Below, in pieces: positions 1,018 through 51,195 of a stretch of 64,000 nucleotides of DNA. This stretch comes from Ferrovibrio terrae (GTDB lineage: Bacteria > Pseudomonadota > Alphaproteobacteria > Ferrovibrionales > Ferrovibrionaceae): the NCBI RefSeq assembly GCF_007197755.1, contig NZ_CP041636.1:3942001-4006000 (forward strand), written 5' to 3'. The translations under genes and the position numbers were made by a program. The notes below the pieces were generated by a model. That model saw only the letters and a program-made list of their open reading frames with translations, ran no database searches and was not told the DNA's origin. How positions within the stretch are numbered: the first letter of the stretch is position 1; each line of letters opens with the position of its first letter.

Positions 1018-2952
1018 ATGCTGTCTTTTCGCGACCTGACCTACCGGATTGCCGGCCGTGTGCTGCTGGACCATGTCTCGGCCGTGATCCCGGCCGGGCA
1101 TAAAGTCGGCCTGGTCGGGCGTAATGGCACCGGCAAATCGACGCTGTTCAAGATCATCACCGGCGAATTGCAGACCGAAACCGGCAGCGTCGAACTGCCC
1201 AACGACTGCAAGATCGCCAAGCTGCCGCAGGAACCGCCGGGCGGCGAGCAGACGCCGATCGCCTATGTGCTGGCCGCCGATGCCGAGCGCGAGGCGCTGC
1301 TGATCGAGGCGGAAGAACTCGAAGACGCCACCAGCATGGAAGACGCCGAGCGCATCGCCGCGGTGCATATGCGACTGGCCGAGATCGACGCCCATACCGC
1401 GCCGGCGCGCGCCGCCGTCATCCTGGCGGGACTGGGCTTTGACGAAGCCGCGCAGAACCGTCCGCTGGATTCCTTCTCGGGCGGCTGGCGCATGCGCGTG
1501 GCGCTGGCCGGCTGTCTGTTTGCCCAGCCGGATCTGCTGCTGCTGGATGAGCCGACCAACCATCTCGATCTCGAAGCCTCGCTCTGGCTCGAAAGCTACC
1601 TGAAAACCTATCCGCGCACCTTCCTGCTGATCAGCCATGACCGGCATTTCCTGAACAGCGCGATCGAACACATCCTGCATATCGACAACACCAAGCTCGT
1701 TCTCTATCGCGGCAACTACGACACTTTCGAGACCGAGCGGCGGCTCCGCATGGAGCAGCAGACGGCCTTTGCCACGCGCCAGGCCGAACAGCGCAAGCAT
1801 ATGGAAGCCTTCGTCGCGCGCTTCCGCGCCTCGGCCTCCAAAGCGCGTCAGGCGCAGAGCCGCATCAAGATGCTGGCCAAGATGCAGCCGATCGTGGCCG
1901 CCATTGAAGATCCCACCGTGATCTTCCGCCTGCCCGATCCGGAAGAACTGCCGCCGCCGCTGATCGTGCTGGATCATCTGACCGCCGGGTATGCCGCCGA
2001 CAAGCCGGTGCTGCGCAACCTCGATCTGCGCATCGACATGGAAGACCGCATCGCCATGCTGGGTGCCAACGGCAACGGCAAGTCGACGCTGGCCAAGATT
2101 CTCGCCGGCACGCTGAAGCCGCAGGGCGGCAAGCTGCAGAAAAGCGGCAAGCTGCGCATCGGCTATTTCGCGCAGGACCAGGACGACGTGCTGGACGAAA
2201 ACCGCACGCCGGTCGAACACATGCTCGACCTGCTGCCGAATGCCACTATCGAACAGATGCGCACCAAGCTGGGCAGCTTCGGCCTCGTGCGCGACAAGGC
2301 GCAGACCGCGGCCGGCAAGCTGTCGGGCGGCGAGCGCGCGCGGCTGCTGTTTGCCATGGTCACGCATCATGCGCCGCATCTGCTGATCCTCGACGAACCG
2401 ACCAACCATCTCGACATGGACACGCGCGACGCGCTGGTGCAGGCGGTGAACGAATTCAAGGGCGCCGTCATCCTGGTCAGCCATGATCGCCATATGGCCG
2501 AGGCCTGCGCGGACCGCTTCTGGCTGGTCGGCGACGGCACCGTGAAAGACTTCGACGGCGACCTCGACGATTACGCCAGACTGCTGGCCGAGAAGCGCCG
2601 CGCCACGGCCTCGACGGTGAAGCTGAAAGGCGGCGGCGGTGGCGGCAAGGCCGTGGATGCCTCCGCCGACCGCAAGGCAGACCGCAAGGCGGCGGCCGCC
2701 GCGCGTCAGGCGCTGGCGCCGTTGCGCATCGCCGTGCAGGCAGCCGAAAAGGCGATGGCCAAACTCAATGCCGAGAAGACGCGGCTGGATGCGACGCTGG
2801 CCGATCCCGACACCTACACGAAGATGAGCGCGGCGAAGCAGAGTGAACTGCAGAAGCAGCATGGCGAGTTGGTGAAGCAGCTGGAGACGGCGGAAGAAGC
2901 CTGGCTCGACGCGCAGGCGAAACTCGAAACCGCGCAGGCCGAGGCGGCGTAA
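1018..2952 (+). CDS. ABC-F family ATPase (YheS/Uup-like)
   Basis: This is a soluble ABC-F protein with two ATPase domains and no membrane segment; the family acts on ribosomes. Domain 1 has Walker A GRNGTGKST (residues 34-42) and signature FSGGWRMR (about 153). Domain 2 has GANGNGKST (about 348) and LSGGERAR (about 434). Both have LDEPTNHLD Walker B/D-loop blocks. An interdomain linker lies around 230-300, and a charged Ala/Lys/Glu-rich C-terminal coil around 545-644 follows a glycine run. Length (644 aa) is close to E. coli YheS. Whether it is a translation factor or gives antibiotic protection cannot be read from sequence. Its stop lies 4 nt from the convergent holC stop. Confidence 0.93.
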   Translation: MLSFRDLTYRIAGRVLLDHVSAVIPAGHKVGLVGRNGTGKSTLFKIITGELQTETGSVELPNDCKIAKLPQEPPGGEQTPIAYVLAADAEREALLIEAEELEDATSMEDAERIAAVHMRLAEIDAHTAPARAAVILAGLGFDEAAQNRPLDSFSGGWRMRVALAGCLFAQPDLLLLDEPTNHLDLEASLWLESYLKTYPRTFLLISHDRHFLNSAIEHILHIDNTKLVLYRGNYDTFETERRLRMEQQTAFATRQAEQRKHMEAFVARFRASASKARQAQSRIKMLAKMQPIVAAIEDPTVIFRLPDPEELPPPLIVLDHLTAGYAADKPVLRNLDLRIDMEDRIAMLGANGNGKSTLAKILAGTLKPQGGKLQKSGKLRIGYFAQDQDDVLDENRTPVEHMLDLLPNATIEQMRTKLGSFGLVRDKAQTAAGKLSGGERARLLFAMVTHHAPHLLILDEPTNHLDMDTRDALVQAVNEFKGAVILVSHDRHMAEACADRFWLVGDGTVKDFDGDLDDYARLLAEKRRATASTVKLKGGGGGGKAVDASADRKADRKAAAAARQALAPLRIAVQAAEKAMAKLNAEKTRLDATLADPDTYTKMSAAKQSELQKQHGELVKQLETAEEAWLDAQAKLETAQAEAA

Positions 2953-2956
2953 GGCG

Positions 2957-3415
2957 TTAGCCTTCGGCCTTCTTGATCCAGCCGCCGGTGTCTTCGTTCT
3001 GCTGCCAGTAGGTCAGCTTGTGGCCGGCGTCTTTCGCGCGTTTCCAGCGCTGCCGCGCGGCATCCACGGCGGCATCGTCATTGCCGTCGAACAGGTCGCA
3101 GACGCGGGTATAAGCCGAGACATCCGTGGCATCGGCGCCGTCGACCAGGAACAGCACGTCGGCCTGGTTGGGCCGCTCGTCCTCGACGGTGAGATAGATC
3201 GGCTGCTTTTCCGCGAAGCCGTCCGGCTTGATGCCATGCGGCAAAAAGCTGTTGCGGCCATAGGTCCACAGCTCGCCGTTCAGCGCCTGGATGCGTTCCT
3301 CGCTGCCGCCCTTGACGACAGCCTTCCAGCCCTTCTGCAGCGTCTTTTCCAAAAGCTCCGGCAGCACCTGTTCAAGGCGCCGCCGGGTCAGATGGTAGAA
3401 CAGCAGTTCGGCCAC
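2957..3415 (-). CDS. holC: DNA polymerase III chi subunit
   Basis: HolC is the chi accessory subunit of the replicative polymerase clamp loader and contacts single-strand binding protein. The 152-residue protein has the typical start (MAELLFYHLTRR), then a Rossmann-like fold with WTYGRNSFLPHG and the VLFLVDG segment. It starts with GTG immediately after the pepA TGA (TGAGTG), so it is probably translationally coupled. The pepA-holC order is common in proteobacteria and supports the call. Confidence 0.92.
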   Translation of the reverse strand: MAELLFYHLTRRRLEQVLPELLEKTLQKGWKAVVKGGSEERIQALNGELWTYGRNSFLPHGIKPDGFAEKQPIYLTVEDERPNQADVLFLVDGADATDVSAYTRVCDLFDGNDDAAVDAARQRWKRAKDAGHKLTYWQQNEDTGGWIKKAEG

Positions 3416-4930
3416 TCAGCGATCTTCGTAGTGATCGGCGACGAGGCGGTTGAGCAGGCGGACGCCAAAGCCGGTGGCGCCCTTCGGCACCGTCGCCTTG
3501 TCCTTCTTGCTCCAGGCCACGCCGGCGATGTCCAGATGCGCCCAGGGCGTCTTGTCGATGACAAAGCGCTGCAGGAACTGCGCCGCCGTGATCGAGCCGG
3601 CGCCGAAGCCGGGGCCCGCGATATTCTGCATGTCGGCGATCGGCGACTTCAGGCCCTCGTCGTAAGCCTCGCTGAGCGGCATGCGCCACAGCAGCTCGTC
3701 TTCCGACTTGCCGGCGGCGGCCAGCTGCTCCGACAGGCGGTCGTTGTTCGAGAACAGGCCGGCATGCTCATGGCCCAGCGAGATGATGATCGCGCCGGTC
3801 AGCGTGGCGAGGTCGACCATGAACTGCGGCTTGAAACGCTGCTGCGTGTACCACATGGCGTCGCACAGGATCAGGCGGCCTTCGGCATCGGTATTCAATA
3901 CCTCGATGGTTTGCCCGGACATGGACGTGACCACGTCGCCCGGACGCTGCGCGGTGCCGGACGGCATGTTTTCCACCAGCGCCACCACGCCCACCGCATT
4001 CACCTTGGCCTTGCGGCCGGCAAGGGCCGCCATGGTGCCGACGACGGCGCCGGCGCCGGCCATATCCCACTTCATCTCTTCCATGCCGCCGGCCGGCTTG
4101 ATCGAAATGCCGCCGGTGTCGAAGCAGACGCCCTTGCCGACGAAGCTGACGGGCTTGCCGCCCTTCTTGCCGCCGTTCCAGTGCATCACGACCAGCTTGG
4201 ACTCGCGCTCCGAGCCCTGGCCGACGCCGAGCAGCGCGCCCATGCCGAGCTTCTTCATCTCGCGCTCGCCCAGCACCTCGACCTTGACGCCGAGCTTGGT
4301 CAGCTTGCGGCATTCAGCCGCCATGCTTTCCGGATAGATGATGTTGGCCGGCTCGGTCACCAGGTTGCGGGTGATCTCCACGCCCGCCGCCAGCTTGTCG
4401 AGCGGGGCATGCAGCTTTTTCGCCGCCGGAGCGGCCTGGGTCAGCACGTTGACCGTCTTCAGCGTCGGCTTCTCGCGGTCCTTCATTTTTGTGCGGTATT
4501 TGTCGAAGCGGTAACCGCCGAGCCGGGCGCCCAGGGCGGCGCGCGCCGCGGCCTCGCCGGCCGGCAGCATGGTGCCCTTCAGCACCTCGGCCCCGATGGC
4601 CAGCTCGGTCTCGCCCGCCGTCGCCAGCCGCTTCACCGCGTCGGCGCCCACCGCCTCATAGGCGACAGCCTTGACCTCGGTGGTCTTGCCCAGGCCGGCC
4701 AGCAGCACCCGGTTCAGGCCGCCGCCCGAACCGCCACCTGGTGCCAGCACCTCGAGCCACTGGCCCTTGCCGCCGGAAAACCGCGCCGCGGCCGCCATGG
4801 CCTTGCCCAGCGCACCGCCGCAGGCCTTGTCGACCTGCTGGCCGAACGAACCGAGCTGGCGCCCCTCGCCCACGACAAGGACCAGGCTGCCGCGTTTCGG
4901 GGTTTTGCTGTCGACGATCTCGATTTTCAT
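3416..4930 (-). CDS. pepA: Leucyl aminopeptidase (M17 family)
   Basis: Cytosolic two-metal aminopeptidase that removes N-terminal residues; in some bacteria it also binds DNA in cer/Xer recombination. The M17 metal-ligand and catalytic blocks are present: KGVCFDTGGISIKP, MKWDMAGAGAV, and NTDAEGRLIL with the paired Asp/Glu. The first possible start is 4972, but I use 4930 (MKIEIVDSK), which matches family N termini and gives 504 aa. It is the first gene of a two-gene unit with holC and is divergent from lptF. Confidence 0.95.
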   Translation of the reverse strand: MKIEIVDSKTPKRGSLVLVVGEGRQLGSFGQQVDKACGGALGKAMAAAARFSGGKGQWLEVLAPGGGSGGGLNRVLLAGLGKTTEVKAVAYEAVGADAVKRLATAGETELAIGAEVLKGTMLPAGEAAARAALGARLGGYRFDKYRTKMKDREKPTLKTVNVLTQAAPAAKKLHAPLDKLAAGVEITRNLVTEPANIIYPESMAAECRKLTKLGVKVEVLGEREMKKLGMGALLGVGQGSERESKLVVMHWNGGKKGGKPVSFVGKGVCFDTGGISIKPAGGMEEMKWDMAGAGAVVGTMAALAGRKAKVNAVGVVALVENMPSGTAQRPGDVVTSMSGQTIEVLNTDAEGRLILCDAMWYTQQRFKPQFMVDLATLTGAIIISLGHEHAGLFSNNDRLSEQLAAAGKSEDELLWRMPLSEAYDEGLKSPIADMQNIAGPGFGAGSITAAQFLQRFVIDKTPWAHLDIAGVAWSKKDKATVPKGATGFGVRLLNRLVADHYEDR

Positions 4931-48400: not shown

Positions 48401-48445
48401 CAAGCTCAGAGGCGGCAAGCTCAGAGGCGGCAAGCTCTGGGGCGA
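48401..48445. repeat. 15-bp tandem repeat, three units
   Basis: CAAGCTCAGAGGCGG occurs twice exactly (48401-48415, 48416-48430) and once diverged (48431-48445); a fourth degenerate start (CAAGATC) follows. It is the first of three different tandem arrays packed between mnmA and the gene at 48810. The 466-nt gap 48344-48809 has no other recognisable gene. Confidence 0.85.
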
Positions 48446-48489
48446 CAAGATCCTCCGGGTCAGGATTGTTTCCCGGCGGCTCGATCCGG

Positions 48490-48573
48490 CTCGACTGAGG
48501 CCCGGTGGGGGCTGAGTGAGGTCTATTTGATGCTGAGTCAGGTCTATTCGGGGCCAAGTGAGGTCCATTCGGG
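48490..48573. repeat. 21-bp tandem repeat, three clear units
   Basis: Units 48511-48531, 48532-48552 and 48553-48573 share the core GCTGAGTGAGGTCTATT with few changes; a more diverged unit may lie at 48490-48510. The last unit runs directly into the decamer array. Confidence 0.8.
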
Positions 48574-48692
48574 TTCGTGGGTGTTCGTTTTGCTTCGTTC
48601 GGGTTCGTAGCGGTTCGTGGCGGTTCGTGGCGGTTCGCTGATGTTCGTGGCGGTTCCCTGGCGTTCGTGGCGGTTCGTAGAGCTTCGCTCCG
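48573..48692. repeat. Decamer repeat array 2 (GTTCG + 5 nt)
   Basis: Twelve units of 10 bp in exact register: GTTCG (or CTTCG, GTTCC) at 48573, 48583 and so on every 10 bp to 48683. The commonest unit is GTTCGTGGCG. It is the reverse complement of the array at 97-231. The 20-mer CTGGCGTTCGTGGCGGTTCG at 48658-48677 is the exact reverse complement of 187-206, and a second 13-nt block is also shared (48585-48597 with 217-229). Confidence 0.87.
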
Positions 48693-48809: not shown

Positions 48810-49244
48810 ATGGTGAAAACGGCGACAGCGGCCCTGCCCTGCAAGCACCTGTCTGTCTCGATCCCGCAACCCTTCGAACGGGTGAATGCGTTTCTGTCCG
48901 ACCCGGCGAACTGGACGCTCTGGGCCAGCGGCCTGGGCGAGATGCAGTTCGATGCCGCACGCGATGTCTGGACCGCGCAACAGGACGGCGTCGGCGTGGT
49001 GACGATTGTATTCACGCCGCCGAATGCTTTCGGGATTCTGGATCACCGCGTGACACTGCCCGATGGCAGCGTGGTGATCATGCCGGTGCGCGCGATGGCG
49101 AATGGCGACAGCACGGAGCTTGTGCTGACGCTGTTCCGCCAGCCCGGCATGGATGATGCGACGTGGAAGCGTGATGAGGAGTGGGTGAAGAAGGATTTGG
49201 AGAGATTGAAGAAAATTATCGGCGCAACGGAATGTCCGAGATAA
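48810..49244 (+). CDS. SRPBCC-like small protein
   Basis: A 144-residue protein with the look of a START/SRPBCC lipid-binding or cyclase fold: VSIPQPFERVNAFLSDPANWTLWASGLG at the start, beta-rich middle, and a C-terminal long helix (DATWKRDEEWVKKDLERLKKI). ATG 48810 has GGAGG 7 nt upstream. The frame is open to 48699 over repeat-flanking sequence, which I do not include. Function unknown. Its 3' end overlaps the convergent DUF2971 pseudogene by 29 bp. Confidence 0.75.
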   Translation: MVKTATAALPCKHLSVSIPQPFERVNAFLSDPANWTLWASGLGEMQFDAARDVWTAQQDGVGVVTIVFTPPNAFGILDHRVTLPDGSVVIMPVRAMANGDSTELVLTLFRQPGMDDATWKRDEEWVKKDLERLKKIIGATECPR

Positions 49245-50200
49245 ACACTCGCTTGTAAGCGTCTTCTACCCCGGCCTCTTTAAGCAAAATGATAAATGCG
49301 TCGTAAAGGGCAGCAGGATAATCAGACGGCCCAATAATGATGCGATCAATCAACTCAGGTATTTCTATACCAGTAAGACCTTGGTCAGGAAAATTCCTTA
49401 ACGGAATCTTGTAAACTGGCTGAGGAACACCCGCGATCACTCTTACGTCCCTCAGCAATCACTCTTACGTCCCTCAGCAATACATTGGAGGGACTGTACA
49501 TCGGGTTAAAAAGAATTCGCCATTCGCGTTCCTCCCAAAATCCGGGATGCTTGGTACACAGGGCAGCAAACATGAGCATATTAAACGCCATATTTTTTAT
49601 GGCTTCACGGCCGTATGGGCGGAGCAGATCAATATTTTCTTCTATTCCATCCACAACTATTTTGAACTCAGCATCAAATTCCGAATCGCTGAGATAAGCG
49701 ACAGGGCTCGTGTATGCGTGGAAAACATCACTCTCGTTAAAAAACGGAGCGGCGTTCATAACAAAGGCAACTCCTGTGCCGCCGCCGTATCCGCGCCACA
49801 TGGAGAGGCGGCCAAAAGTATCCTCGGTATCGTAGTGTTCAGAGAAGCATGTGAAATATGTGCTGGTGCGAAGACGATCACGCCAATCGTTATAAAAAGT
49901 TTGTAATTCTTTCGATAGACCATCGAAAAGATGGTCTAAGGCAACCTGAAATCGCTTTCCATTACTCCCCTTATTATAGGCCGCGGCCACACAATTCATT
50001 CCATGCTCCACTTCCATGATATCATTCATGCAAGTCGAATTTCGCATCCACACTTCTTTATTACGCAAAATACTCATTGCCGCATCAGCGTTTGTGTAGT
50101 GGACAAAGCGGCCATTGCGCTTTTGCACTTCCGCTTGTCGGTTATGCATGTAAGGGAAAAACACCTGCAACGCAGGCCGCATATCAAGGGGATCAGACAT
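49216..50200 (-). pseudogene. DUF2971 family gene frameshifted by a 22-bp tandem duplication
   Basis: The 5' part (50200 to about 49460) encodes a DUF2971-type protein (FVHYTNADAAMSILRNKEVW, FTCFSEHYDTEDTFGRLSMW, HPGFWEEREWRILF). After LLRDVRVIA it shifts into EGRKSD and stops at 49385. The true continuation, LLRDVRVIAGVPQPVYKIP to ISDIPLRR, lies in another frame (49458-49216). Removing one copy of the 22-bp repeat restores a single frame of about 320 codons. The gene is clearly AT-richer than its neighbours, which suggests transfer. DUF2971 genes often occur in accessory or defence regions; the function is unknown. Confidence 0.85.
49436..49479. repeat. Exact 22-bp tandem duplication
   Basis: Two identical 22-bp copies, 49436-49457 and 49458-49479, beginning ATCACTCTTACGTCC and ending CTCAGCA. 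As 22 is not a multiple of three, the duplication shifts the frame of the DUF2971 gene. Slipped-strand loss of one copy would repair it. Confidence 0.95.
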
Positions 50201-50213
50201 GATGGAATCGTCC

Positions 50214-50238
50214 AAAGTGTGGCTGTCAGTCACACTTT
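50214..50238. promoter_or_regulatory. Inverted repeat upstream of the DUF2971 gene
   Basis: AAAGTGTG and CACACTTT are exact inverted 8-mers separated by 9 nt, 14-38 bp before the start codon at 50200. It could be an operator or a leader hairpin. No T-run suits a terminator. Confidence 0.5.
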
Positions 50239-50322
50239 AGCTTCGCTTTGCCTCGATGGTCCATCTGCAATTCAGAACATTGACAAACCCGAGGATGACG
50301 GTTACGCGGCGTTGATCGCATA

Positions 50323-51195
50323 TTACGCCACCCTCTTCCGCTTCGTGAGAATCTCCGCCAGCGCGCTCACCTTCGCCTGCGGCTGGTCCTTGCGCCACAC
50401 CAGCAGCGTCTTCGCGCGCTGGAACGGCGCCGGCAGTTTGTGTTCGCGCAGCTTGCTGCGCGCGGCATAGCCATCCAGCACGCTGCGTGGCATCAGCGCC
50501 GCGCCCATGCCGGCCGCCACGCAGCCGAGCATCACGTGATACGACGCCAGCTCCACCGTGCGCGCGATCTCGCGCCCGCCCTGGCCGAACCAGCGTTCCA
50601 GCCGCTCGCGATGCGGACAGCCGGGATGAAACGCCAGCACGCTCGCCTCACGCAGGTCGGCGGGTTTCCGCACGACTGGATGATCGGCAACTGTGACCAG
50701 CACCAGTTCCTCGTCGAACACGGCCAATGAGCTGAGCCGCGCATCGCTGACCGGTTCGGCCACCAGGGCTGCATCGCTCTCGCCCGCCAGCACTTTCGCC
50801 ATCAGCTCGCGCGGCGAGCCGGTATGCAGCTCGACGCGCACCTCGGCATATCTGCGATGATATTCGGCCAGCGGCCCGGGCAGGCGCACGCCGGCGGTGC
50901 TTTCCATCGTGCCGAGCGTGAGCAGGCCGCGCGGCGGCGCATCCGTCTGCACGGCGTTGCGGGCTTCGTCCGCCAGCACCAGCAGGCGGTGTGCATAGTC
51001 CAGCAGCGTGCGGCCGGCCGGCGTGATCTGCAGCCGCTTGCCGACGCGCACAAACAGCTGCGTGCCGAGGTCCTCTTCCAGTTTCTGGATGCGCGCCGTC
51101 ACATTCGACTGCACGCGATGCAGCCGGTTGGCCGCCGCCGTGATGCCGCCGCTTTCCACCACGGTGCGGAAGACATGCAGGTCGGTCAGGTCCAT
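50323..51195 (-). CDS. LysR family transcriptional regulator
   Basis: 290 residues: N-terminal helix-turn-helix (MDLTDLHVFRTVVESGGITAAANRLHRVQSNVTARI is the typical LysR start) and a C-terminal periplasmic-binding-like effector domain from about 90. It is divergent from the monooxygenase at 51309, and a T-N11-A box lies 8 bp upstream of its start. The effector is unknown. Confidence 0.93.
   Translation of the reverse strand: MDLTDLHVFRTVVESGGITAAANRLHRVQSNVTARIQKLEEDLGTQLFVRVGKRLQITPAGRTLLDYAHRLLVLADEARNAVQTDAPPRGLLTLGTMESTAGVRLPGPLAEYHRRYAEVRVELHTGSPRELMAKVLAGESDAALVAEPVSDARLSSLAVFDEELVLVTVADHPVVRKPADLREASVLAFHPGCPHRERLERWFGQGGREIARTVELASYHVMLGCVAAGMGAALMPRSVLDGYAARSKLREHKLPAPFQRAKTLLVWRKDQPQAKVSALAEILTKRKRVA

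Follow-up and report, generated by a model that had tools for sequence, protein, structure and literature searches.

We wanted to know what an exact 22-bp tandem duplication in the middle of a gene says about that gene: is it a switch, the scar of ordinary decay, or an error of assembly? The gene lies in Ferrovibrio terrae, within a 64,000-nt stretch of contig NZ_CP041636.1 that was analyzed as a whole and is called the window here. On inspection of the sequence, two identical adjacent 22-bp copies occupy 49436-49479, the copy distal in the gene at 49436..49457 and the proximal one at 49458..49479 (both minus strand), followed by 2 nt (49480-49481, minus strand) that repeat the first 2 nt of the unit again. 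Tandem Repeats Finder reported the same array (49436-49481, period 22, 2.1 copies, 100% match), and the identity of the copies asserted in the preliminary description is thereby borne out. Per random window of even composition, chance would produce an exact tandem pair of 22-bp units about 4e-9 times (64000 x 4^-22).

Because 22 is not divisible by three, the duplication shifts the frame of the gene, which belongs to the DUF2971 family. As now read, the minus-strand frame (49385..50200) runs from an ATG at 50200 through 249 residues in register, as decided by residue match to relatives, and then through another 22 that are out of register, up to a premature stop at 49385-49387. An in-frame GTG at 50233 is a possible alternative start upstream, and a repeat scan found a 12-nt inverted repeat just 5' of the ATG (50214..50238, 92% complementary), a putative operator or hairpin. 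The displaced original C-terminus (IIIGP...SDIPLRR) was found in another frame of the same strand at 49216..49458, where it aligns with intact relatives at up to 61% identity, in support of the earlier proposal that the duplication put the gene out of frame. The region 49216-50200 measures 985 nt; subtracting 22 leaves 963 nt, or 321 codons including the stop, which agrees with the figure of about 320 codons given beforehand for the frame after removal of one copy.

The N-terminal piece, scanned from the GTG at 50233, matched Pfam DUF2971 (PF11185) with an E-value of 1.1e-10 and 43.1 bits against a gathering cut-off of 22, covering the whole 89-position model, so the family label in the preliminary description was correct for this piece. 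The C-terminal piece alone matched no Pfam family; intact relatives nevertheless align to it with their C-termini, and the two pieces together align as one continuous protein with six intact plasmid relatives (rhizobial, sphingomonad and Cupriavidus). PF11185 has a single match in the source genome, which is one 4.26-Mb contig listed as 100% complete. Conservation was assessed on 73 of the 80 relatives from genomes described below, leaving out three that are broken or cut (L065, L085 and L100), two with overlong frames (L124 and L131) and, by choice, two from Agrobacterium (L077 and L116). Fifty-nine columns were conserved in at least 85% of these 73, and the two window pieces together retain 58 of them, the sole exception being an A-to-G change in the N piece. 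Of the 14 conserved columns of the C part, the displaced frame has all and the frame as now read has none. Since both pieces keep 58 of the 59 columns, the duplication is, at the level of sequence, the only visible lesion of the gene.

The present frame does not run on as a single frame to the C-terminal GP...S-IP-R motif. Four motifs (H-Y, N-D-E, LSxWR and E-EW-R; candidate sites of NAD-binding catalytic residues) are invariant in 20 divergent relatives and a C-terminal GP...S-P-R is nearly so, and for this reason a truncated product that has lost the GP...S-IP-R motif along with the conserved elements of the C-terminus is probably inactive. That the gene is otherwise undamaged throughout suggests that the lesion is young, or else not real; so nearly perfect a gene would also be compatible with an artefact or with a switch that seldom flips. 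It had been argued beforehand that perfect identity of the copies means that the event is recent or that the repeat is maintained. That argument is weak, because zero differences in 22 sites bound the divergence of the copies only to about 13% (95% upper bound 12.7%); the undamaged gene on either side of the lesion is the better sign of its youth.

We then consider where the gene came from. It occupies a low-GC islet of 1.1 kb (49212..50316), delimited by GC steps and alignments, with a GC content of 0.42-0.56 in 200-bp steps versus 0.59-0.72 in most flanking steps. Alignment with the corresponding site of two related genomes fails over the islet: DNA similarity to the first (G008) ends at 49211 and restarts at 50317, and similarity to the second (G012) ends at 49203 and restarts at 50348. 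At this site G008 (L021) codes for a MarR-type regulator and for a short-chain dehydrogenase; in G012 (L022) the flanks stand ~7.6 kb apart and enclose frames for a similar regulator and dehydrogenase, as well as for winged-helix-like and nitrilase-like proteins, both below Pfam cut-offs. These different genes at the same position indicate that the site is variable among related genomes. The closest copy of the G008-type dehydrogenase in the window's own genome has 38% identity, so none is close. The flanking region was matched in four of the nine other genus genomes, with both flanks on one contig only in G008 and G012. As a separate observation, the stretch of L022 at 1809-4326, which codes for the winged-helix-like protein (weak CARF-type matches) and the nitrilase-like protein (weak match to an RT-associated nitrilase), is perhaps another defence islet.

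The islet is present once in its genome. A search for the DUF2971 gene in 17 other genomes of the family (72%-100% complete; 10 of the 17 with a completeness of 90% or more and a contamination of 5% or less) gave no match, the own genome being the sole match of 18, and of the 385 genomes in the class set 11 matched, the own genome included. Low GC and absence from family relatives support the lateral acquisition suggested in the preliminary description, and the gene looks like a recent arrival acquired horizontally. Insertion by an IS or integron was rejected as the route: a repeat scan of 49150-50450 found no terminal repeats at 49212/50316, and the alignments carried no sign of an element.

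Several other repeats occur in the window. Degenerate arrays of a ~10-bp unit (CGAACCGCCA / GGTTCGTGGC) lie at 96-220 and 48568-48687; counting exact matches only, the 15-mer CGAACCGCCACGAAC occurs 22 times in the genome versus 0 for a reversed control, and is absent from the nine other genomes of the genus set. Two more arrays (15-bp and ~21-bp units) lie next to the islet at 48401-48573, flanked on one side by a gene with a sub-threshold polyketide-cyclase match and on the other by a gene that we take to be mnmA.

How often are genes of this family broken, and in what way? An earlier search of genome contigs with a single sequence had found no relatives, and an alignment-based search was needed, from which we took the best 80 of 226 loci. 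In 77 of these 80 the gene is intact, with one frame to the normal C-terminus; a script scored 78 as in frame, among them L100, which we reclassified since its C-terminus has been replaced by sequence that is IS-like by eye. The remaining two are L085, which runs off the contig end, and L065, with a single in-frame TAG (around 5543) and good similarity on both sides, which may be a fresh nonsense lesion, a site of readthrough or a sequence error. DUF2971 also occurs on plasmids and in viral contigs. Forty-four viral contigs hold relatives, and among the first 24 listed, which were checked, 22 are full length, one (L168) is cut by the contig end and one (L171) has two in-frame stops. The family members L065, L100 and L171 appear to be broken by assorted lesions unrelated to tandem duplication. 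No exact tandem duplication of at least 10 bp turned up in the 80 genome loci, scanned to 200 nt past the frame end, or in the viral loci scanned (24 of 44; in L171 the scan was confined to the stretch around the shortened frame). Exact tandem repeats of 8-9 bp are present in the stretches of L071, L106 and L139, where the genes are in frame. A search of phage records with the N piece was negative at 1e-5.

The family seems to travel without a fixed companion in the set examined: when 546 neighboring ORFs of the 80 genome relatives were clustered, no neighbor recurred in more than six loci as a conserved operon partner or antitoxin would, and the commonest cluster (six loci) consists, by eye, of ABC-type ATPases. 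In L094, a frame at 4024-4890 beside the DUF2971 relative has the same HYT and SQWRGY motifs, and L070 has a similar neighbor; the L094 frame and the adjoining relative are perhaps a paralogue pair.

We consider it likely that the locus is a solitary, horizontally acquired DUF2971 gene recently inactivated in the sequenced strain by a slipped-strand duplication of 22 bp, that is, an instance of ordinary gene decay. The imperfect repeats ATTGC and ATCGC (gene strand, spacing 22 bp) mark the bounds of the duplicated interval. They match at four of five bases, a degree reached at eight of 879 other gene positions with that spacing, and are a weak microhomology motif picked after inspection; as such, these bounds fit an origin by slipped-strand synthesis (template misalignment). 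The nascent strand would have re-paired between the two repeats and the interval between them would have been copied twice, giving the 22-bp duplication; the frameshift would then have cost the gene its conserved C-terminal elements and left a probably dead product. The intact protein would probably have been an AbiGi-like, mobile protein of the ADP-ribosyltransferase fold, perhaps active in phage defence, and its loss would have been tolerated. Birth of the duplication from a strong DNA hairpin was considered and rejected, the single-strand folding having a z of only -1.85, with nine of 200 shuffles at least as stable.

We counted nine exact adjacent duplications with a unit of at least 10 bp, four in the window and five in a 400-kb genome sample. 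The 22-bp pair is the only one of the nine demonstrated to break a gene, a count limited by the unsettled coding status of four other sample duplications and of the window array at 96-144; the remaining sample duplication (L048; 27 bp, a multiple of three) lies in long frames. As with any tandem duplication, the 22-bp lesion is in principle revertible. A foreign gene has seemingly been caught here soon after its inactivation, by a lesion whose revertible nature makes the reversion rate directly measurable.

The main rival to recent inactivation, which we judge considerably less probable, is that an assembly join left unmerged a 22-bp overlap shared by two contig ends, the real gene being intact. 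An unmerged overlap would leave exactly such a signature in a gene otherwise undamaged, and the family offers a precedent: in excerpts of the Halomonas elongata resequencing report (PMC5552945), a DUF2971 gene with a known frameshift is among those repaired, in a list entitled "repair of known frameshift". In that same resequencing, however, 37 of 48 indels were in homopolymer runs (excerpts of PMC5552945). The Ferrovibrio genome, moreover, is a single contig listed as complete, and the single-copy islet offers no obvious cause for a contig break. The four-of-five microhomology is expected of slippage and not of a bad join, and the five other exact duplications in the 400-kb sample include none shown to be gene-breaking and only one in clearly long frames.

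The preliminary description had raised the possibility of a reversible on/off switch, in which loss or gain of one 22-bp copy toggles a costly acquired ADP-ribosyltransferase-like gene. The lesion is indeed precisely revertible, and toxic or defence-type genes would be plausible bet-hedging cargo. In pneumococcal capsule genes (wchA/cap8E, tts and the type 3 locus), short spontaneous tandem duplications inside the gene are described as reversible in excerpts of two reports (PMC4243769, PMC4022640), and are termed phase variation in the titles of the primary papers that these cite. The switch is nevertheless unsupported here and we regard it as improbable: there are two copies only, the unit is complex and stands without a simple-repeat tract, nothing comparable occurs in the 80 genome and 24 viral loci checked, and the related genes L065, L100 and L171 were lost by other routes. 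A contingency locus would be recognized by a repeat kept in relatives or by a simple-sequence tract, and we found neither, the relatives covered being those 80 genome and 24 viral loci. We place marginally less trust still in its more elaborate form, in which a mobile orphan defence gene of ADP-ribosyltransferase type is kept revertibly off while a few cells re-express it and protect the population, sparing the cost of constant expression. Two-part expression, with the C part of a functional split gene restarted at a TTG at 49458 inside the repeat, strikes us as highly improbable. The C part does retain an 80-codon frame with this possible start, yet in structure models it contributes a helix and strands to a single domain, and sigma-70-type promoter matches, the only type sought, numbered 0 in 49150-50400 versus 1.5 expected in shuffles. 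No examined relative is split likewise, and on the same ground a programmed frameshift was rejected.

Recent inactivation of a foreign gene would leave the question of what the intact protein did. We obtained AlphaFold models of two relatives, the intact L067 from Microvirga (mean pLDDT 96.8) and the divergent L188 (89.1), which are not fully independent, as four of the 20 rows behind L188 come from the L067 group. The L067 model has, in the portion beyond the break (residue 249 onward, of 319), strands at 250-258, 276-281 and 310-312 and a helix at 287-300. Foldseek against the PDB gave no match below E 0.001 for either model; its best rows for L188 were Tpt1 (E 0.048) and DarT (0.12-0.54), two proteins that share the ADP-ribosyltransferase fold. 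We realigned the models with VIA-align, which takes up only Foldseek's own candidates (129 chains for L067 and 585 for L188). The best rows for L067 were DarT1 (Z 6.8; 147 residues, 4.2 A), Tpt1 (6.5; 116 residues, 3.4 A) and DarT (5.9; 146 residues, 3.8 A), followed by three effector chains (5.1-4.0), presumably ADP-ribosylating, and then by villin as the first unrelated row (3.6); for L188 the first 21 rows were Tpt1/KptA or DarT (8.8-5.2; we take the 1wfx and KptA rows to be Tpt1/KptA) and the first unrelated row had 4.1, all such Z values being middling by the tool's own yardstick, on which a Z of 7 to 8 is typical of models that match nothing clearly. Identity to solved structures in the ADP-ribosyltransferase-fold rows was 8%-18%. 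The fold shared with DarT, Tpt1 and AbiGi was thus recovered on the relatives L067 and L188, rather than on the window protein.

Sequence families point the same way. After DUF2971 itself (74 of 75 alignment members), Pfam AbiGi (PF10899) matched the most members (eight of 75, weakly; best E 0.00063), although the AbiGi match alone is weak, as the unrelated WXG100 reached a better E (5.2e-05) in two members in the same scan. According to excerpts of PMC6192313, AbiGi and DUF4433 have already been placed in one family of the ADP-ribosyltransferase fold. Because the models align best with DarT and Tpt1, AbiGi is weakly matched and the AbiGi/DUF4433 family is known, DUF2971 is predicted to have the DarT/Tpt1 ADP-ribosyltransferase fold and probably belongs with AbiGi and DUF4433.

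Further searches returned little. PADLOC had no match for the window pieces; its PDC-S31 matched three of three intact relatives tested, weakly (E 0.0011-0.018, no stretch passing alone), and the term "PDC-S31" was not found in a full-text search of open-licence PMC literature. A role of the intact gene in phage defence is perhaps worth following, as a lead only. NCBIfam and a profile search of the PDB gave no match, a PDB match by sequence to myoglobin was rejected as chance-level (E 0.83), and Foldseek against BFVD gave nothing below E 0.001, with an ASCH-domain phage protein as the best row (1.6e-3). As a broken gene the locus is ordinary, and its wider point is the fold of the DUF2971 family. 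The assignment gives a domain of unknown function a testable function, which makes it the most useful product of this analysis.

The locus can be set beside three known systems. As in the pneumococcal capsule genes, a short stretch of coding sequence has been directly duplicated with loss of function, an event described there as reversible; in contrast, the capsule-negative forms of those excerpted reports reportedly arose in continuous culture (PMC4022640, PMC4243769), and here there is one genome, in one state, and another type of gene. Within Pfam DUF2971 (PF11185), the window copy is a regular member in that its N piece passes the curated cut-off and its two pieces jointly restore the layout of intact relatives, and it differs in being frame-broken, when of the 80 genome relatives 77 have an intact gene and L085 is truncated only by the end of its contig. 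Finally, the family as a whole compares with AbiGi (PF10899), DUF4433-DarT and Tpt1, in that AbiGi weakly matches some of its members and its models align best with DarT and Tpt1 (Z up to 8.8); identity to the solved structures is 8%-18%, the models are of relatives and not of the broken window protein, and catalysis by DUF2971 proteins is at most predicted.
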